From assembly GCF_001408515.1 (NCBI RefSeq), contig NZ_CYPR01000157.1, positions 1 to 64,000 of the forward strand: DNA of 64,000 nt, in the 5' to 3' direction. Source of the stretch: Jannaschia seosinensis (GTDB lineage: Bacteria > Pseudomonadota > Alphaproteobacteria > Rhodobacterales > Rhodobacteraceae). The position numbers and the translations under genes were made by a program. Below the pieces are notes generated by a model. It was not told where the DNA came from, searched no databases, and saw only the letters and a program-made list of their open reading frames with translations. Within the stretch, counting starts at the first letter, position 1, and every line of letters begins with the position of its first letter. Below, in pieces: positions 16,130-41,580 of this stretch.

Positions 16130-16492
16130 TCAGCTCGGAACGACCTCGGACAGCGCGGCCAGCAAATCGCGGTCGGCGAATGGCTTGGAGAGCCGGCGCG
16201 CATCGTCGAGTTCCGCGGGAAGCTGAACCGTCGATGCGGTATAGCCGGACATGAACAGAAGCGGGCAGCCGCGCGCATGCAACTCCCGCGCGATATCGAA
16301 GCTGGTCTCGCCGCGGCCCAGATTGACGTCGAGCACCGCCACCACCGGCGTATGTTCGTCCAGATAGGCACGCGCATCCGATGCGCTGGAGCAAACGCGC
16401 AGATTCTCATAGCCGGCATCGCGAAGCGTCGCCTCTATATCCATCGCGATCAGCATCTCGTCCTCGAGGACGAGAATTTCGCCTTCCGTCAT
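16130..16492 (-). CDS. Single-domain response regulator (REC)
   Basis: 120 residues, receiver domain only. Acidic pair Glu10/Asp11 (VLEDEML), phospho-acceptor Asp55 (VAVLDVNLG), Ser82 (FMSGY) and Lys103 (LSKPF) are all present, so it should be phosphorylatable. There is no output domain. It lies 24 nt after the HWE sensor kinase on the same strand. Receivers of this type paired with HWE kinases often act as phosphate sinks or diffusible signals; the target is unknown. Confidence 0.9.
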   Translation of the reverse strand: MTEGEILVLEDEMLIAMDIEATLRDAGYENLRVCSSASDARAYLDEHTPVVAVLDVNLGRGETSFDIARELHARGCPLLFMSGYTASTVQLPAELDDARRLSKPFADRDLLAALSEVVPS

Positions 16493-33019: not shown

Positions 33020-33173
33020 TAAAGTCGGTTGACCTTGGCCCTCCTGCTTGCAACCTTCAGAACCTGCTCGCGCCCTACAAAAGCGGGATTGCAGCAAGAA
33101 TCGCCTCGCACAGGGCGGGACCGGATTCCGTTCGGGAACCTGGCAAAAGATGTATTCCGGAGACTTGTACCAC

Positions 33174-34154
33174 ATGAAGAATTTCTTGATCACCACGGCC
33201 TTCGCCGCCGCATCCGCGACCGCGATGTTTACCGGTGCCGCACAGGCACAGGAAGAGTGCGGTCAGGTCACGATCACCGAAATGAACTGGGCCTCCGCGG
33301 CCGTCGTCACCGGCGTCGCCTCCTTCCTGATGGAGCAGGGCTATGGCTGCAACGTCATCAAGGTGCCGTCCTCGACCACGCCGGCGCTCGCCTCCGTATC
33401 CGAGACCGGGACGCCCGAGATCGTCACCGAACTCTGGATCAACGGCACCCCCGCCTATGAGCGGCTGTCGGAGGCCGGCACGATCACCACGCTGACCGAC
33501 GTGCTGCTTCCGGGCGGCGTCGAGGGCTGGTGGATCCCGACCTACCTCGCCGAGGAGCATCCCGAGCTTCTGACCATCGAAGGTCTGCTCGCCAACCCGG
33601 AGCTTCTGGACAACCGCTTCCATCAATGCCCCGAAGGCTGGGGCTGCAAGAACACCAATGCCGGCATCATCGAGGCCCTGGAGCTCGAGGAAGCTGGCTA
33701 CGAGATCTTCCAGCACGGCTCCGGCGAGACGATGGCGACTTCGATCGCCGCCGCCGTCCAGAACAAGGAGCCGTGGCTCGGCTATTACTGGGGCCCGACA
33801 TCGGTTCTCGGCAAGTACGACATGAGCAAGGTCGATCTGGGCGAGTACAACGAGGAAGCCCATATGTGTAACGCCGATCCCGATTGCGAGGACGTCGGCA
33901 TGTCCTCCTACCCGGTCGGCCCGGTCAAGACGGTCGTGACCACCGACTTCGAGGAAAACCACCCGGCCCTGACCGAACTGTTGACCAACCTGACCTTCAC
34001 GAACGACCAGATGAACGAGGTTCTGGCCTGGCAGGAGGACAACAACGCCTCCGCCGAAGAGACCGCGGTCTACTTCCTGACGAACTATTCGGATGTCTGG
34101 CAGGACTGGGTGAACGACGCGGCGCGCGAGAAGCTCTCGATATTCATCCAGTAA
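33174..34154 (+). CDS. Glycine betaine/proline-type ABC substrate-binding protein, copy 2
   Basis: 326 residues, signal peptide ending GAAQAQ, mature ProX/OpuAC-type domain: ITEMNWASAAVVTGVASF, IVTELWINGTPAYERL, IFQHGSGETMATS and PWLGYYWGPTSVLGKYDM. ATG 33174, ribosome site GGAG 33158-33161. Paralog of copy 1. It precedes proW by 122 nt with a hairpin between, an arrangement that gives excess binding protein over membrane components. Quaternary amines such as betaine or dimethylsulfoniopropionate are likely ligands, not proven. Confidence 0.92.
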   Translation: MKNFLITTAFAAASATAMFTGAAQAQEECGQVTITEMNWASAAVVTGVASFLMEQGYGCNVIKVPSSTTPALASVSETGTPEIVTELWINGTPAYERLSEAGTITTLTDVLLPGGVEGWWIPTYLAEEHPELLTIEGLLANPELLDNRFHQCPEGWGCKNTNAGIIEALELEEAGYEIFQHGSGETMATSIAAAVQNKEPWLGYYWGPTSVLGKYDMSKVDLGEYNEEAHMCNADPDCEDVGMSSYPVGPVKTVVTTDFEENHPALTELLTNLTFTNDQMNEVLAWQEDNNASAEETAVYFLTNYSDVWQDWVNDAAREKLSIFIQ

Positions 34155-34168
34155 ATTTCGACGACGGC

Positions 34169-34188
34169 GCGGGCCCTGCGGGGCCCGC
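34169..34188 (+). terminator. Attenuating hairpin between binding protein and permease
   Basis: GCGGGCCC / GGGCCCGC, 8-bp perfect stem, 4-nt loop, 14 nt after the binding-protein stop, followed by TTCGCATT. It fits a partial terminator or RNA-end stabiliser for higher binding-protein expression. Confidence 0.55.
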
Positions 34189-34276
34189 TTCGCATTCCGG
34201 GAGCCGGCACGAACGACCGGCGCATCCCGCAAAAACGAACGAACCCGTACGACGAAAAAGACGGATCTGGGACATA

Positions 34277-35329
34277 ATGGCCACTTATGATGGATTGTTC
34301 GAGGCGCTCGGCCTCGGGGACTGGTGCGGGGGCGGCGCGACGGGCGGCCCTATGACGATGGCGGAGCTTCTGGCCCGGGCGCAGGGCGGCGGGACGCCGG
34401 ATGGCGCCGCCGAGCCGGCCGTACCGCTGCTGGAGACGCCCTTCCCCTCGCTCGATGCCCTCAACCAGGCCTGCGGCGCCATCCCGCGTTCGCGCGACAT
34501 GACCCGCGGGGTCGAACAGGGCTTCCTCGCCATCAAGGATCCGCTCAAGGTCGTGCTCGACCCGATCACGCAGCCGCTGTCGTGGATGCTCGACCTCTCG
34601 CTGGAGGCGTTTCAGGCCATTCCGTGGTTCATCATGATCCCGCTGCTGATCGCCATCGCCTGGTTCTCGACCAAGAAGGCCGGCGTGACGCTGCTGGTGG
34701 CGTTCTCGTTCCTGTTCATGGCGTTCATCAATTACTACGACGACGCGATCCAGACGCTGTCGATCATCTTCGTCTGCACGATCATCGCGGTGCTTCTGGG
34801 CGTACCGGTGGGGATCGCGATGTCGCGCTCGAACGCGCTGCAACGCTCGGTGATCCCCGTTCTGGACATGCTCCAGACGCTGCCGACCTTCGTCTATCTC
34901 GTGCCGCTGATCTTCCTGTTCTCGGTCACCGAATCCAAGCTCTACGGGATCGCGATCATCCTCTACGCCATCGTGCCGGTGATCCGCCTGACGGATCTGG
35001 GCATCCGGCTCGTGGACAAGGACGTGATCGAAGCGGCCGACGCCTTCGGCATGTCCTCCCGCCAGAAATTGTGGGGTGTGCAAATCCCGCTGGCGCTGCC
35101 CAACATCATGGCCGGCGTGAACCAGACCATCATGATGAGCCTCGCGATGGTCGTGATCGCCTCGCTGGTCTCGGCGCCGGGGCTGGGCGTGAAGGTCCTG
35201 GCGGGGATCCGGAACCTTGAACTGGGCGTGGGCCTCGTCGCGGGCTTCTGCATCGTCCTCCTCGCGGTCCTACTCGACCGCTCCACCAAGGCCGCGCTTG
35301 GCCGCATCGACGCGAGTGACCGGGGATGA
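34277..35329 (+). CDS. proW: ProW-type glycine betaine ABC permease
   Basis: 350 residues. A long soluble N-terminus (about 1-105) precedes six or more membrane helices (WFIMIPLLIAIAWF, SIIFVCTIIAVLLGVPVGI, FVYLVPLIFLFSV). The EAA loop AADAFGMSSRQKLWGVQIP contacts the ATPase. The ATG at 34277 fits the family; the open frame extends far upstream through the binding-protein gene. The stop overlaps proV (ATGA). Confidence 0.93.
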   Translation: MATYDGLFEALGLGDWCGGGATGGPMTMAELLARAQGGGTPDGAAEPAVPLLETPFPSLDALNQACGAIPRSRDMTRGVEQGFLAIKDPLKVVLDPITQPLSWMLDLSLEAFQAIPWFIMIPLLIAIAWFSTKKAGVTLLVAFSFLFMAFINYYDDAIQTLSIIFVCTIIAVLLGVPVGIAMSRSNALQRSVIPVLDMLQTLPTFVYLVPLIFLFSVTESKLYGIAIILYAIVPVIRLTDLGIRLVDKDVIEAADAFGMSSRQKLWGVQIPLALPNIMAGVNQTIMMSLAMVVIASLVSAPGLGVKVLAGIRNLELGVGLVAGFCIVLLAVLLDRSTKAALGRIDASDRG

Positions 35330-36396
35330 GAGACGACATGAACGAAGGCGAGGTGAAGATCTCGATCCGCAACCTTTACAAGATTTTCGGCAACGACCCG
35401 AAGGCGGCGCTGCAACACGTGCGCGACGGCGTCGCCAAGCCCGAGCTTCTGGATCAGTACGGCCACGTGCTCGGCCTGCAGGACATCAATGTCGACATCC
35501 GCGCGGGTCAGATCACCGTCATCATGGGCCTGTCCGGATCGGGCAAGTCCACGCTGATCCGGCATCTCAACCGGCTGATCGATCCGACGGCGGGCGAGGT
35601 CATCGTCAACGGCGAGGACGTGCTGGCTTATGGCGAGCGGCGGCTGGCAGAGTTGCGGCAGAACACCATGTCGATGGTGTTCCAGAAGTTCGCCCTCCTG
35701 CCGCACAAGACCGTCCTGCAAAATGCGGGCATGGCGCGGCGCGTGAAGGGCGAGGCGGGATCCGCGATCGACGAGGATGCGCGCAAATGGCTCGGGCGCG
35801 TTGGCCTCGACGGCTACGAGGGACACTACCCTGCGCAGCTTTCGGGTGGCATGCAGCAGCGGGTCGGCATCGCCCGGGCGCTGGCCTCGGATTCCGAGAT
35901 CATGCTCATGGACGAGGCGTTCTCGGCGCTCGACCCGCTGATCCGCACCGACATGCAGGACCTGCTCCTCGAGCTTCAGCGCGAGTTGCACAAGACGATC
36001 GTCTTCATCACCCACGATCTCGACGAGGCGCTGAAACTGGCCGACCATCTCGTCATCCTCAAGGACGGCGCCGTGGTTCAGCAGGGCGAGCCGCAGGATA
36101 TCCTGCTGCATCCGAACGATCCCTACATCATCGACTTCATCTCCGACATCAATCGCGCCCGCGTCCTGCGCGTGCGCTCGGTCATGGAGACGACGACGCG
36201 CGAGGGCAGCGGGCTGGCCGGGGAGGTGGATGCGCACCAGAACCTGGAATCCGTCATCGCCATCTCGGAAGGCGACACGAACCTGCATTACCGGGTGATG
36301 GAAGACGGCAAGCAGGTCGGGCTTCTGCACATGCGCGATCTGGTCAAGGCGCTGGTCCCGGTCGAGGCGGCCGATCCCGCGCGGCGCGTGGCCTGA
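35326..36396 (+). CDS. proV: ProV-type glycine betaine ABC ATPase
   Basis: 356 residues: IRNLYKIFGNDPKAAL of the ProV class, Walker A GLSGSGKST (about 69-77), Q-loop MVFQKFALLPH, signature LSGGMQQR, Walker B IMLMDEAFSALDP and H-loop FITHDLDEA. After about 260 comes a shortened regulatory C-terminus (FISDINRARVL, HYRVMEDGKQVGLLHMRDL), resembling one CBS unit rather than the paired CBS of E. coli ProV. ATG 35326 overlaps proW; ATG 35338 is an alternative. Confidence 0.93.
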   Translation: MRDDMNEGEVKISIRNLYKIFGNDPKAALQHVRDGVAKPELLDQYGHVLGLQDINVDIRAGQITVIMGLSGSGKSTLIRHLNRLIDPTAGEVIVNGEDVLAYGERRLAELRQNTMSMVFQKFALLPHKTVLQNAGMARRVKGEAGSAIDEDARKWLGRVGLDGYEGHYPAQLSGGMQQRVGIARALASDSEIMLMDEAFSALDPLIRTDMQDLLLELQRELHKTIVFITHDLDEALKLADHLVILKDGAVVQQGEPQDILLHPNDPYIIDFISDINRARVLRVRSVMETTTREGSGLAGEVDAHQNLESVIAISEGDTNLHYRVMEDGKQVGLLHMRDLVKALVPVEAADPARRVA

Positions 36397-36451: not shown

Positions 36452-37477
36452 TCAGTCGTAGCGCAGACCCTGCGCCTTGCCCCGGAACACCCAATAGGCC
36501 AGCGCCGTATAGCCGAGGATCGACGGCACCACGAAGCAGGCGCCGACAAGGATGATGATCAGGCTCTCCGGCGCGCTCGCCGCCTCCCAGATGGTCAGCC
36601 GCTCGGGCACGACGTAGGGATAGAAGCTGTATCCCAGCCCCAGGAAGGCCAGCACGAAGAGCCCCAGCGCCGCGGTGAACGGCGCCCAGGCCCACCGGTC
36701 CCCCTGCGCCGGCAGATGCGCCAGCGACCGCCACAAGAGCGCCAGCAAGGCCAGCGACAGGATCGGCAGGGGCGACAGCCAGATGAAGGTCGGGAACTCG
36801 AACCACCGCTCCCAGATGCGCGGAGAGACGAGCGGCGTGGCCAGCGAGATCGCCCCGATCCCCACGACGAGGCCCCAGATGCATTCCTTTGCCCACGCCA
36901 CCGCCCGGCGCTGCAGGTCGGTCTCGCCCTTGAGGATCAGCCAGGTCGCGCCGATGAACGCGTAGCCCATCGTCAGCGACAGCGCGCAGACCACCGCGAA
37001 GAGGAGCGTCACCGCGTTCATCTCCAGCCCCATCACGTAAAGGCCCAGCATGAAGCCCTGCGAGAACGTCGCCATCAGGGAGCCCGCGAAGAACAGCCTG
37101 TCCCAAAGCCGCTTGTATCGCGCCCGCGCCTTGACCCGGAACTCGAACGAGACCCCCCGCAGGATCAGCCCGAGCAACAGGAAGAACACCGGCAGATAGA
37201 GCGTCGACAGGATCATCCCGTGCGCCGTCGGAAAGGCCACCAGAAGCAGGCCGATCGCGAGGACGAGCCATGTCTCGTTGGCATCCCAGAACGGGCCGAT
37301 CGAGGCGACCATCATGTCCCGCTCCGCCTCGCTGCGCGCCAGCGGGGTCAGGATGCCGACCCCCAGATCGTAGCCGTCGAGGATGACGTAGAGCAGGATC
37401 GACACGCCCATCAGGCTGGCAAAGACGAAGGGCAGCCAGATGTCGGGCTGGTATCCGAGAAGGTCCATAGGGGTCAC
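36452..37477 (-). CDS. cydB: Cytochrome bd-type quinol oxidase subunit II
   Basis: 341 residues, about eight or nine membrane helices. VILDGYDLGVGILTPL, IGPFWDANETWLVL, FPTAHGMILSTLYLPVF and GYSFYPYVVPERLTIWEAA match CydB/CioB. It pairs with CydA to oxidise quinol and reduce oxygen. The length and sequence suit the cyanide-insensitive (CIO-like) branch but this is not certain. Start 37477 overlaps the cydA stop (ATGA); 37468 is an alternative. Confidence 0.95.
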   Translation of the reverse strand: MTPMDLLGYQPDIWLPFVFASLMGVSILLYVILDGYDLGVGILTPLARSEAERDMMVASIGPFWDANETWLVLAIGLLLVAFPTAHGMILSTLYLPVFFLLLGLILRGVSFEFRVKARARYKRLWDRLFFAGSLMATFSQGFMLGLYVMGLEMNAVTLLFAVVCALSLTMGYAFIGATWLILKGETDLQRRAVAWAKECIWGLVVGIGAISLATPLVSPRIWERWFEFPTFIWLSPLPILSLALLALLWRSLAHLPAQGDRWAWAPFTAALGLFVLAFLGLGYSFYPYVVPERLTIWEAASAPESLIIILVGACFVVPSILGYTALAYWVFRGKAQGLRYD

Positions 37478-38907
37478 TCCGCAGGTTGCAGGCCGCGATC
37501 CTCGCGGGCGATGGCATCGACCATCGCCGCACCCGAGGCCGGGGTCAGGGAGGTGAGCGGCGCGTCATGGCGCGCCTTGACGGCGAGGTAGACGATCACG
37601 CTGACATAGGCGAAGAGCAGCGCCGCGTAGAGCGCGAGGTAGCCCAGGAGCGTCGACAGGACCATCGGCGCGGGCACGTCCGCCACCGCCGACGACACGT
37701 CGAGCACGCCCTGCACGAGCCATGGCTGGCGCCCGATCTCGGTCGTGTACCACCCCGCCAGCGTCGCCACCCAGCCCGAAAAGGCCATCGGCACGAGCGC
37801 GAAGAGAAGCGGCCGCGGAAGCCGGTCGATATGGAACCGCCGCCCATCCGGCGCCCGCCGCATCATCAGCACGACCGAAGCCCAAGACACCAAGAGCATC
37901 GCCATGCCCGTGCCGACCATGATGCGGAACGACCAGAACACCTTGTCCACCGGCGGATGCAGGACCGTCCCGTCCTCGGCCACGAATTCGTCGAGCGCCG
38001 GGATCGCGCCATCGGCATGGTGGGTCAGGATGAGGGACGCGAGGCTCGGGATCGCGATCTCGAACCGGTTCTCGCGCGCGTTCTCATCGGGCAGGGCGAA
38101 GAGGACGAGCGGCGTGTGCCCGTTCGTATCCGACCAGTTCGCTTCCATCGCCGCGACCTTCTGAGGCTGATGCTCCAGCGTGTTGAGGCCGTGCACGTCG
38201 CCGGCGAAGATCTGAAGCGGGATCAGAAGCGCGGCAAAGCCCAGACCCGCCCGCATCGAGGCGCGCACGCTCTCCTTGCGGTCGCCGCGAAGCCAGCGGA
38301 ACGCGCTGACGCCCGCGATGAGGAACGCCACGGTCAAACCGCTCGCCAGCAGCATGTGCCCGAGGCGGTAGGGCATCGACGGGTTGAAGACGATCGCCCA
38401 CCAATCCGTCGCATGCGCCGCGCCGTCGATCATCTCGAAGCCCTGCGGCGTGTGCATCCACGAGTTCAGCACGATGATCCAGAAGGTCGACAGCGTCGTC
38501 CCGAAGGCCACGAGGAAGGTCGCCAGCGTGTGCAACCAGCCCGGAACGCGGCTGAAACCGAAGAGCATGATCCCGATGAACACCGCCTCGAGGAAGAACG
38601 CCGTCATCACCTCGTAGGCCAGAAGCGGGCCGGCGATATTGCCCACGGTCTCCATGAAGCCCGGCCAGTTGGTGCCGAACTGGAACGACATGGTGATGCC
38701 CGAGACGACGCCCATGGCGAAGCTCAGCGCGAAGACCTTCACCCAGAAGCGGTAGGCCTCCATCCACTTGAAATCGCCCGTCCACTGGAACCGCAGCTTG
38801 AAGAACAGAAGGAACCAGCCCAGCGCGATGGTGATCGTCGGGAACAGGATGTGGAACGAGATGTTGGCCGCGAACTGGATGCGGCTGAGGATCAGGGTGT
38901 CCATCAT
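37474..38907 (-). CDS. cydA: Cytochrome bd-type quinol oxidase subunit I
   Basis: 477 residues. ILSRIQFAANISFHILFPTI carries His of the first helix; GTNWPGFMETVGNIAGPLL and FFLEAVFIGIMLFGF contain the haem b595/d Glu residues; the short Q-loop (about 250-330) lacks the insert of E. coli CydA, as in CIO-type enzymes. WYTTEIGRQPWLVQG is conserved. Start is MM at 38907/38904 and overlaps the regulator stop. Confidence 0.95.
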   Translation of the reverse strand: MMDTLILSRIQFAANISFHILFPTITIALGWFLLFFKLRFQWTGDFKWMEAYRFWVKVFALSFAMGVVSGITMSFQFGTNWPGFMETVGNIAGPLLAYEVMTAFFLEAVFIGIMLFGFSRVPGWLHTLATFLVAFGTTLSTFWIIVLNSWMHTPQGFEMIDGAAHATDWWAIVFNPSMPYRLGHMLLASGLTVAFLIAGVSAFRWLRGDRKESVRASMRAGLGFAALLIPLQIFAGDVHGLNTLEHQPQKVAAMEANWSDTNGHTPLVLFALPDENARENRFEIAIPSLASLILTHHADGAIPALDEFVAEDGTVLHPPVDKVFWSFRIMVGTGMAMLLVSWASVVLMMRRAPDGRRFHIDRLPRPLLFALVPMAFSGWVATLAGWYTTEIGRQPWLVQGVLDVSSAVADVPAPMVLSTLLGYLALYAALLFAYVSVIVYLAVKARHDAPLTSLTPASGAAMVDAIAREDRGLQPAE

Positions 38908-39455
38908 TGCGTCTTCCTCCGGAACGGGTTCAGGCGCGGCGTCCGGTCGAGCAGACCGCCGAGTTTGCGCCCCATCGTCATCAACTGGACGAGGCGCTCG
39001 GTCTCCAGCCGGCTCATCTCGTCGTGGAACTGGGTCATCATCTCGATCATCTCGCGCAACTCGGCGATCCGCGCCTCGGCATAGGGATCGTCCTGTGGGC
39101 CCGACATCTCCAACTCGCGCAGCTTGGTCAGGGTCGGATCGATCTCGCGCTTGCGCCGCTCTGCGACGAGGGTGCGGACGATCTCCCAAAGGTCGTCGGG
39201 CGTGGTGAAGTAGTCCCGCCGGTCACCCGGCACATGGCGCAGCCGCACGAGGTTCCAGGACTGAAGCTCCTTGAGACCCATCGACGTGTTCGACCGGCTG
39301 ATGCCCAGCGCGCCGGTGATCTGCTCGGCGTTGAGCGGCGTCTCGTTGAGAAACAGCAGGGCGTAGATCTGGCCGACGGTGCGGTTGATCCCCCACCGGC
39401 TGCCCATCTCGCCGAAGTGGAGAACGAACTCTTGCTGAAGGGGGGAGAGCGTCAT
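38904..39455 (-). CDS. GbsR/MarR-type winged-helix regulator of cydAB
   Basis: 183 residues from ATG 39455 (MTLSPLQQEFVLHFGEMG). The GbsR signature is present: GSRWGINRTVGQIYALLFL, then the winged helix with ALGISRSNTSMGLKELQSW and VPGDRRDYFT, and a helical dimer tail (about 110-160). Its stop overlaps the cydA start (TGATG), so regulator and oxidase form one operon. A 26-bp palindrome begins 5 nt upstream of the start codon, pointing to autoregulation. The longer frame upstream would run through the palindrome into the IS end. Confidence 0.92.
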   Translation of the reverse strand: MTLSPLQQEFVLHFGEMGSRWGINRTVGQIYALLFLNETPLNAEQITGALGISRSNTSMGLKELQSWNLVRLRHVPGDRRDYFTTPDDLWEIVRTLVAERRKREIDPTLTKLRELEMSGPQDDPYAEARIAELREMIEMMTQFHDEMSRLETERLVQLMTMGRKLGGLLDRTPRLNPFRRKTQ

Positions 39456-39460
39456 TTTCG

Positions 39461-39486
39461 TCCGTTTCAGAAATTTCTGAAACGGA
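39461..39486. promoter_or_regulatory. 26-bp perfect palindrome, putative operator of the regulator-cydAB operon
   Basis: The half-site TCCGTTTCAGAAA at 39461-39473 is followed at once by its exact complement (39474-39486). It lies 5 nt before the regulator ATG and must overlap the transcript 5' end. A perfect dyad of this size suits a MarR/GbsR dimer acting as autorepressor. Confidence 0.75.
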
Positions 39487-39551
39487 TGTAAGGAGCGGTC
39501 ACTTCGGGGTAAAGGGGTGCGACACCTGAGCTCGACTTTGTACGTTTTCAC

Positions 39552-39851
39552 TCACGTCCAGGTCCAGAAAACGGCCTCGTTCGCTATGAACTCGAGCGCG
39601 TCGTCGAGAGGCATGACGACGCCACCCATGTCATCGATATCCTCCCATTTGCGCCGGTGTGACCAGTATCCGAGCCGGACCTCGTCTCCGTTGCCGGTCG
39701 GCTTCAGGCGGGCAATCGGCGCCTCCGTCTCCAGCAGGTAGAGATGGCAAGAGCCCTTGTTCTTGTAGGAGCCGACACCACCACCATTGGCGTCGTCGAA
39801 AGCTTCGATGCGGGCGACCATTTCATCGTACAGCATGCGCAGATCATACAT
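39552..39851 (-). CDS. Hypothetical protein inside the IS (possible passenger)
   Basis: 99 residues from ATG 39851 (GTG 39857 also possible): MYDLRMLYDEMVARIEAFDD start cut here, a beta-rich middle (CHLYLLETEAPIARLKP, VRLGYWSHRRKWEDID) and an end VMPLDDALEFIANEAVFW. The stop lies 5 nt inside the left inverted repeat, so it is carried by the element. The hydrophilic strand-rich layout with a final aromatic block recalls small DUF3024-type proteins, but that is a loose likeness. It faces away from the transposase. Confidence 0.65.
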   Translation of the reverse strand: MYDLRMLYDEMVARIEAFDDANGGGVGSYKNKGSCHLYLLETEAPIARLKPTGNGDEVRLGYWSHRRKWEDIDDMGGVVMPLDDALEFIANEAVFWTWT

Positions 39852-39932
39852 GAGCACACCTCAAGATGCGTCATTCACTTTGCCGCGGGCCCCTGACTTG
39901 CATGGTGATCGGCGAGGGATTCGAAGCATGGG

Positions 39933-41315
39933 ATGCAGCAACATTCCACCTCCCCGCCGCCGACAGGCGTTCCGGTTCCCCAGATCCTGCGCGATTGGCT
40001 GCAGGAGCTGCGAATGTGCTTTACAGCTCCCAGCTGGGAACACGTGCTTGTTCTGGTCATGGGTGCAGTGCTGGCACCGGGCAAGCGCACCGTCAGCGCC
40101 TGCCTGCGGATGACCGGGCGTGCCGAGGCGCAGAATTTCTCAAGCTGTCATCAGCTCCTCAACCGTGCCCGGTGGAACACCCACGCCATGGCGCGGCACC
40201 TGCTGAGCATGGTCGTCAACCGCCTCGTGCCGGAGGGCCCGGTAGTCATCGGGATGGACGACACCATTGAACGCCGGTGGGGGCGCAGGATCACAGCACG
40301 CGGCATCTATCGCGATCCCGTCCGCTCCAGCCACGGCCATTTCGTCAAGGCCAGCGGACTGCGCTGGTTGAGCTTCATGGTGCTGACGCCGGTCCCGTGG
40401 GCGGGTGCCGTAAAGGCCCTGCCGGTCTTCACCCTGCTCGCCCCGTCACAACGCTCCAACCTTCACCGGGGACGCAGACACAAGCTGCTGACCGACTGGG
40501 CCCGCCAAGGGGCGCTCCAGCTCTGCCGCTGGTTGCCCGACCGCGACATCGTCTTCGTCGGCGACAGCAGTTTCGCCGTCCACGAACTGGCCCACGCTAT
40601 CACAGGCCGGGCAACGCTGATCAGCCGGCTCCGGCTCGATGCCAATCTCTTCGCGCCCCCTCCCGAGCGCAATGCGCGCTCCGTCGGCCGTCCGGCACAG
40701 AAGGGCCCGCCGTTGCCCAAGTTGAAGACCTTGCTTTCAGATCCCGCTACGCCATGGCACAGAATGACCGTCTCCTCATGGTATGGCCGCAAGCAAGGGA
40801 AAACGCTCGAGATCGCCTCGGACACCGCACTCTGGTATCGCCCCGGCACGCCGCCCAAACCAATCCGCTGGGTGCTTGTCAGAGACCCTGAAGGCAAGCG
40901 GGCCCCGCAGGCCTTCTTCAGCACCGACACCGCCCGCGAGCCAGCCGACATCATCGCACTCTTCGTCCGCCGTTGGCAGGTCGAGGTCACCTTTGCAGAA
41001 ACCCGCGCGCATCTCGGCGTCGAAACCCAAAGGCAGTGGTCCGACAAGGCAATCGCGCGAACAACACCTGCCTTGCTCGGTCTCTACAGCCTCATCTCGC
41101 TGTGGGCCTGCGATCTGCTGAGCACGACCAGCACGCCCTATGCCGCAGCATGGTATCGCAAGACCAATCTCACCTTCACCGACGCCACCGGTTCGGTGCG
41201 TCTGGCCCTCTGGGCAGGAGAGGTTTTCCAACACCCTCCGCCGGACCGGGAACCGCAAGAAATCCCGCCCGACCGCCTCGTGCGCATGGCCGAAGCACTT
41301 TGCTTCGCCGCATAA
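39933..41315 (+). CDS. DDE transposase, IS4/IS701-like
   Basis: 460 residues. Catalytic acidic residues are likely in VIGMDDTIERRWGR (about 110), IVFVGDSSFAVHEL (about 212) and RRWQVEVTFAETRAHLG (about 356; the YREK-like C-terminal Glu). FVKASGLRWLSFMVL and WYGRKQGKTLEI lie between them. It looks intact. The TAA stop (41313-41315) runs into the right inverted repeat. Family placement between IS701 and IS4 is not settled by eye. Confidence 0.9.
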   Translation: MQQHSTSPPPTGVPVPQILRDWLQELRMCFTAPSWEHVLVLVMGAVLAPGKRTVSACLRMTGRAEAQNFSSCHQLLNRARWNTHAMARHLLSMVVNRLVPEGPVVIGMDDTIERRWGRRITARGIYRDPVRSSHGHFVKASGLRWLSFMVLTPVPWAGAVKALPVFTLLAPSQRSNLHRGRRHKLLTDWARQGALQLCRWLPDRDIVFVGDSSFAVHELAHAITGRATLISRLRLDANLFAPPPERNARSVGRPAQKGPPLPKLKTLLSDPATPWHRMTVSSWYGRKQGKTLEIASDTALWYRPGTPPKPIRWVLVRDPEGKRAPQAFFSTDTAREPADIIALFVRRWQVEVTFAETRAHLGVETQRQWSDKAIARTTPALLGLYSLISLWACDLLSTTSTPYAAAWYRKTNLTFTDATGSVRLALWAGEVFQHPPPDREPQEIPPDRLVRMAEALCFAA

Positions 41316-41580
41316 TGTATAAAGTCGAGCTTAGATCAAATAGCCTGAACGGCCTCTTCAGCTTCCGCTGACGTCACCTTGTTTCAGTGAAGCGCCTCAA
41401 GGCCTCGCTCGACATTAATCCACCCTCCGATCCGCCGCTTGGTTCTGCGGGATAAGTCCGCGCGCTAGCAGCGGCCGCTCAGTCCGAAGCTCGGGCCCCG
41501 CCGCCGCTGTCATTTTAGCGTTCAAACGCCTGTTTATACGTAATTTCGCATCAAAAAATGGCTTCGGAGGTGACCCAGCC

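Follow-up and report, generated by a model that had tools for sequence, protein, structure and literature searches.

How is cytochrome bd synthesis controlled in Jannaschia seosinensis, where a regulator gene of the GbsR/MarR type heads the oxidase operon and a long palindrome lies directly before it? Cytochrome bd aids bacterial respiration at low oxygen and in the presence of cyanide, sulfide or nitric oxide. In the window, by which we mean the whole stretch of 64,000 nucleotides that was analysed, three genes follow one another on the minus strand: a cydE/cioR-type gene (38904–39455), the first of the operon, which encodes a GbsR/MarR-family repressor of 183 amino acids, cydA (37474–38907), encoding cytochrome bd subunit I (Cyt_bd_oxida_I, E = 3.9e-153), and cydB (36452–37477), encoding subunit II (Cyt_bd_oxida_II, E = 1.9e-86). 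The stop codon of the regulator gene and the start codon of cydA share four nucleotides (ATGA, 38904–38907), and cydA and cydB overlap by four nucleotides as well. The initial annotation of this DNA had recognised a GbsR/MarR-type gene overlapping cydA, in agreement with this overlap and with a match of the protein to Pfam MarR_2 above the cut-off. It had also called the regulator gene cotranscribed with cydAB; the overlaps between regulator gene and cydA and between cydA and cydB were found as four nucleotides each, and cotranscription of the three genes is what these overlaps suggest. Genes for an ABC transporter of the glycine-betaine type (33048–36396, plus strand; substrate type read by eye) converge on cydB. 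The neighbour of cydB is this transporter in Jannaschia faecimaris (L036) and the genes found at 30.0–31.6 kb of the window in L037; in L038 none matched.

The palindrome is perfect over 26 bp (TCCGTTTCAGAAATTTCTGAAACGGA, 39461–39486, to which no strand is assigned) and contains an 18-bp core, TTTCAGAAATTTCTGAAA, at 39465–39482. Five nucleotides (39456–39460) separate it from the ATG of the regulator gene (39455, minus strand), exactly as had been described, and the half-site given for it was found unchanged. By composition, about 0.004 perfect 26-bp palindromes would be expected in the window, and one is present. The 26-mer occurs a single time in the 3.83-Mb genome, also with up to three mismatches allowed, and the exact 18-bp core likewise occurs once. 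With up to three mismatches, the core was found at three other genomic places, two of them overlapping and all within coding frames. These were considered as further targets of the regulator and rejected, the two overlapping near-matches being located in the coding sequence of a sulfotransferase-like frame (C173) and the third in that of a hisS/hisZ-like overlap (C55; both named by eye); no regulon member besides the cyd operon is claimed. A second perfect palindrome, of 20 bp, is present at 16456–16475 near the start of a response-regulator-like frame (16130–16492, minus strand; named by eye); lying within coding sequence, it is probably due to chance.

Two regulators of known function offer a comparison. 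In Alishewanella sp. WH16-1, the GbsR-type protein CydE is reported to be cotranscribed with cydAB and to repress its own cydEAB operon, repression being relieved by sulfate, and footprint site 1 of CydE is given as TATTTCAGAAATTTCTGAAAGTTCA (Xia et al. 2018, PMC6096048). This site contains the core TTTCAGAAATTTCTGAAA of the window with 18 of 18 bases identical, and in both organisms a GbsR-type gene heads an operon with cydA and cydB, although the organism studied here, unlike Alishewanella, is an alphaproteobacterium. A further difference is a second CydE site in Alishewanella, GGGATGCGCATATGCAAAT, for which no counterpart was found at 39401–39900, the best match in the window having 8 mismatches of 19; this second site is known from one organism only and was, therefore, not treated as family-defining. 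In Chromobacterium violaceum, CioR is reported to repress cioRAB directly and to bind its own promoter; Fe or Zn at 100 µM disrupts CioR binding, cyanide induces cioRAB in a CioR-dependent manner without acting on CioR in vitro, and activation by quorum sensing is reported as well (2025, PMC11837568). CioR, a GbsR-type autorepressor whose gene stands beside those of both cytochrome bd subunits, resembles the putative repressor of the window in these respects. It has a Cys52, whereas the window protein contains no cysteine at all, which excludes sensing via thiols of its own. The published effectors (sulfate; Fe or Zn in vitro; cyanide in vivo, judged to be indirect) disagree.

More generally, gbsR-type genes are reported beside cyd genes in 34 of 179 cases, and GbsR, OpuAR and OpcR are described to serve osmoprotectant genes via a proposed aromatic cage, which is stated to be absent from CydE of Alishewanella (Ronzheimer et al. 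2018, PMC6207618). These regulators belong to the same MarR subfamily as the window regulator and their modelling template, Mj223 (1KU9), is also its nearest structure, but they serve osmoprotectant genes whereas the window regulator heads a cyd operon. Literature searches joining the MarR family, cyanide-insensitive oxidase and palindrome, or gbsR, cytochrome bd and palindrome, found nothing. Taken together, the identical footprinted 18-mer, the CioR precedent and the gbsR/cyd neighbourhoods identify the operon in the window as a further CydE operon. The dedicated autoregulatory circuit proposed in the initial annotation is strongly supported by these comparisons as to a repressor heading cydAB and a conserved operator, but its kind had already been described with CydE and CioR; the circuit is known in kind and of low novelty.

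Whether the palindrome also precedes regulator–cydAB genes in relatives, a question raised when it was first described, was addressed by scanning species genomes with two peptide patterns. The best 80 of at least 582 confirmed relatives were analysed, a choice which favours close relatives, and near-duplicates were kept (apart from the handling of L005 and L045 described below), so that counts refer to loci and not to independent events. Indeed, 68 of these best 80 of at least 582 loci have TTTCAG-N6-CTGAAA where their cyd operon begins, and the motif was not found once elsewhere in the 710,798 bases of the 80 loci. In 59 of the 80 it is located within 100 bp before the regulator gene; nine further loci, all from Methylobacterium, have the order cydA-cydB-regulator with the motif before cydA. 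Since it precedes cydA in these nine, the motif goes with the operon promoter rather than with the regulator gene. In the same set of 80, cydA was directly downstream of the regulator gene in 55 loci (exact motif in 44), about 4 kb downstream in 15 (motif in all 15) and upstream in nine (motif before cydA in all nine); in one locus, L059, the fetched DNA contained no cydA and no motif. The other 11 of the 12 loci without the exact motif, all with cydA directly downstream, differ from the 18-mer of the window by one to five mismatches. The motif starts at −22 to −78 from the start codon in cyd-linked loci.

Samples drawn at two wider levels gave the same association. In the own family, 47 of 198 genomes had a match, and cydA was directly downstream in seven of 30 loci fetched (window included), all seven with TTTCAGAAATT(T/A)CTGAAA. 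In a phylum sample, 65 of 398 genomes matched at E 1e-25, from which all 35 matches outside the class and five within it were fetched. A same-strand downstream cydA was present in 18 of the 35 outside-class loci, and all 18 have the motif (12 of 12 outer positions in 13 loci, 11 of 12 in five); one of them, L135, has a cydA only 32% identical to that of the window. Among the other 17, two loci have a cydA-like gene, in the opposite orientation, and the remaining 15 have none in the fetched DNA. Outside the class, L130, L131 and L140 have the residue type of the cyd-linked regulators (see below) and lack the motif, and L133 has the motif and no same-strand downstream cydA. Within the class, cydA is accompanied by the exact motif in L167; the other four loci have neither cydA nor TTTCAG-N6-CTGAAA and carry TTTCTG-N6-CAGAAA instead. 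From these comparisons, the palindrome is strongly supported as a conserved operator of the cyd operon. Its length was taken to be 18 and not 26 bp, because the outer four base pairs of each arm are mostly not shared by relatives: flanking pairs 1–4 are complementary in only 42, 25, 31 and 29 of 68 relatives' sites, which is more than the approximately one in four that unrelated bases would give, yet far from strict, and 26 bp as operator length was rejected.

The regulator itself was compared by sequence and by model. Its best NCBIfam match was CudC, with 46 bits versus a cut-off of 218; we place CudC in the GbsR group. An alignment with six cyd-linked relatives gave identities of 57–81%, and the nearest rows in a quick tree are Jannaschia proteins with up to 89% identity. 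The smallest starred sets of the tree that include the window protein comprise 4 rows (4 with a TTTCAG/CTGAAA operator) and 21 rows (21), the next one 32 rows (30 with this operator, 2 without operator). As judged from these sequences, the window regulator, which has F14, S53 and M59, groups with cyd-linked regulators; kinship to the named CydE and CioR, both outside the tree, was judged by operator, gene order and published family. An AlphaFold model (mean pLDDT 77.8, pTM 0.64) contained a winged helix with the recognition helix at residues 54–66 and a long C-terminal helix. The best PDB match of the model was 1KU9 (Mj223; E = 3.9e-9, TM 0.58/0.68), and the same entry was the nearest solved structure by sequence in phmmer (E = 2.3e-14). 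The protein is thus predicted to be an Mj223-related MarR protein of the GbsR subfamily with a winged helix and a C-terminal dimerisation helix.

Upstream of the operator, a promoter is proposed that was read from the sequence on the minus strand (39485–39513): TTTACC (39513–39508), a spacing of 17 nucleotides and TACATC (39490–39485), the end of which is two nucleotides from the 18-bp operator core. In the relatives, the positions 8, 7 and 6 nucleotides before the core are T in 50, A in 42 and C in 39 or T in 26 (n = 68). We infer this placement, since a consensus promoter and terminator scan of 39440–39640 found nothing, and the −35/−10 assignment is weak. Further upstream, a possible remnant of a RegA/PrrA-like box (39519–39533, minus strand) has kept its GTCGC half, and its outer ~8 bases are formed by the end of an insertion sequence (IS); GTCGCA is 41 nucleotides before the operator core in the window. 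In a set of 28 Roseobacter-group and related loci (the window, L003, L004, L006, L007 and L036–L058) that was chosen after the motif was noticed, 15 loci have GTCGCA no more than 65 bp upstream of the operator, against 0.5 loci on average and never more than 4 in 1000 single-base shuffles; GNCGCA was found before the operator in 19 and is absent from nine. L005 was left out of these counts as an apparent duplicate of L045, both being kept in the 145-protein set and tree described below. The 15 commonest hexamers of the remaining 46 loci do not include GTCGCA. The RegA consensus SSGNVRDNHYSNCSS was matched in at least 13 of 15 positions by the 15-mer with GNCGCA at its end in 16 of 18 relatives with GNCGCA in place, but the motif is very degenerate and, given a GTCGC end, 28% would be expected to score that high with random bases. 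The box of the window, the first eight bases of which are IS end, has 11 of 15 and is the lowest of 19. RegA consensus strings are quoted in PMC5506826, and in Rhodobacter capsulatus RegA is reported to activate cydAB and to give a ChIP peak at cydA (PMC5359404).

A different box was seen in lineages other than the RegA-box group: 12 of the best 80 of at least 582 loci have an FNR/FixK-like TTGAY-N4-RTCAA before the regulator gene, and these 12 boxes are 12 of 15 in all DNA searched; the TTGAC half also resembles a −35 element. In 11 loci (L073, L075, L076, L079, L085, L098, L100, L103, L109, L110 and L114) the box occupies a nearly fixed place immediately before the CydE operator, at −57 to −61 relative to the start of the regulator. 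The view that a dedicated circuit takes the place of the usual regulators, as proposed for this operon, does not seem to hold, since predicted RegA-like or FNR/FixK-like boxes lie immediately before the operator in a considerable share of related operons. Judged from the position of these predicted sites upstream of the operator, CydE seems to work beside the global regulators and not to replace them.

The IS at the remnant box is a multicopy element of the IS701 family (39526–41334, plus strand), located directly upstream of the operon promoter, and the RegA-like box has its outer half within this element. Its transposase (39933–41315) scored above the NCBIfam cut-off, and at least 13 further partial matches were found in the genome (40 of 63 candidates scored), several of them at contig ends; several copies have edges at 39523–39526 or 41334–41336. 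A frame of 101 amino acids on the other strand of the IS (39552–39857) had no Pfam or NCBIfam match. No target duplication was seen at the IS ends (ACAC / ATCA, read by eye). What originally lay upstream of the operon was looked for in three Jannaschia loci: their homology to the window stops at 39482–39490, and nothing right of the IS was matched in them; an empty site is, therefore, not demonstrable, and a join at the IS by recombination or assembly is possible.

Taking the evidence together, we are highly confident that the gene is cydE (cioR) and that its product, as a dimer on the 18-bp operator, represses its own cydEAB until it is released by an effector. Comparison provides the gene order, the operator, the place at the operon head, the uniqueness in the genome and the co-conservation with the regulator clade, and direct operator binding and repression by the window CydE would carry over by analogy from Alishewanella and Chromobacterium. 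On the 18-bp operator, which is flanked by the proposed −10 region on one side and the start codon on the other, the CydE dimer would, with transcription probably starting at the upstream edge of the operator, cover the start site, so that regulator and oxidase would be blocked together and a negative feedback would result. Arrival of the effector would release CydE, and cytochrome bd would be made. In close relatives, RegA/PrrA may provide a second, activating input, which the IS may have weakened here.

The palindrome could instead act in the RNA, as a 5′-leader hairpin masking the ribosome-binding site, and a self-folding sequence five nucleotides before the ATG would permit this if it is transcribed. 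It is not pairing, however, that is conserved in the 68 sites but sequence, since the inner bases are preferred as such (A at positions 7–9 in 50, 63 and 65 sites; T at 10–12 in 51, 62 and 36) and 31, 11 and 18 of them lack complementarity at the inner pairs 7-12, 8-11 and 9-10, respectively. The distance from motif to start codon varies over the range given above, and the same 18-mer is reported as a footprinted protein site (PMC6096048), which makes a hairpin highly improbable. Equally little weight is given to an osmolyte-sensing role like that of GbsR or OpuAR, in which the GbsR-type protein would chiefly control the glycine-betaine-type transporter next to cydB. The transporter genes do converge on cydB, the ATPase (35326–36396) matches ABC_tran, and betaine/choline sensing is described as the classical role of GbsR (PMC6207618); yet the window contains the motif at a single position, in front of the regulator gene, the transporter is kept in L036 but replaced in L037 and without a match in L038, and the aromatic cage is reported to be missing from Alishewanella CydE (PMC6207618).

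A stronger case, although still an unlikely one, can be made for regulators of the RegA/FNR type mainly running the operon, with CydE as a minor or decayed brake. It draws on the RegA-like boxes (at least 13 of 15) of the 16 of 18 relatives with GNCGCA, the FNR/FixK-like boxes of the 12 loci among the best 80 of at least 582, and the reported activation of cydAB by RegA in Rhodobacter capsulatus (PMC5359404). The CydE operator is far more widely kept (68 of the same 80), and the RegA-like box of the window is the poorest of 19 and overlaps the IS end. Repression by CydE from the 18-bp operator remains the preferred reading.

Not all relatives of the regulator are linked to cyd genes. A sister GbsR clade (L010–L027; L150–L153, L163–L166) has no cyd genes nearby and mostly TTTCTG-N6-CAGAAA upstream; in the own-family loci L010–L027, cydA was present in the short flanks in 0 of 18. 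Genes for DUF4166, epimerase-DoxX_3 or fatty-acid desaturase proteins are among the neighbours in five sister-clade loci scanned (L012, L151, L161, L163 and L166), and a literature search for DUF4166 with MarR found nothing. Operator type and protein sequence were compared for 145 regulators (window included), L009 (a contig-end fragment) and the distant L028–L031 being left out. The upstream operator was TTTCAG/CTGAAA in 96 (at least 11 of 12 positions), TTTCTG/CAGAAA in 28, mixed in six and neither in 15, nine of the latter being those from Methylobacterium, where the operator precedes cydA. At residues 14/53/59, 90 of the 96 proteins of the TTTCAG/CTGAAA type have F/S/M, all 28 of the TTTCTG/CAGAAA type W/A/T or W/A/N and all six rows with mixed half-sites W/A/T. 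L161 has a sister-clade protein with W14, A53 and T59, yet the cyd-type operator TTTCAGAAATTTCTGAAA. Operator type thus appears to track the recognition-helix residues 53 and 59 for the most part, with L161 and the six mixed rows as exceptions. On the quick tree, the operator label changes twice if only the two main types are considered and 13 times with all four labels, and descent and recognition are not separable from the correlation of residues and operator alone.

A joint reading of these data is possible, but we put it forward tentatively and consider it rather doubtful as a whole: the cyd clade (F14, S53, M59) would read TTTCAG-N6-CTGAAA and the DUF4166/epimerase-DoxX_3/desaturase clade (W14, A53, T/N59) its mirror TTTCTG-N6-CAGAAA, positions 53 and 59 would set the middle base of the half-site, the clades would sense different signals, and in the window the IS would have removed the RegA input from a promoter with two inputs, so that CydE would be the sole control of the oxidase. 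What the comparison seems to add to the known circuit is the retention of global-regulator boxes, an IS over the RegA-like box and the operator type of the sister clade. The paired operator classes offer a testable recognition code for GbsR-type regulators. The widely kept operator can serve as a simple genome marker for CydE circuits and as a common probe for ligand tests. Among the cyd-linked loci, one strain of Microvirga arabica has two regulator–cydAB operons (L066 and L073), both with the operator, the cydA genes of which are of different types with 65% and 46% identity to cydA of the window.
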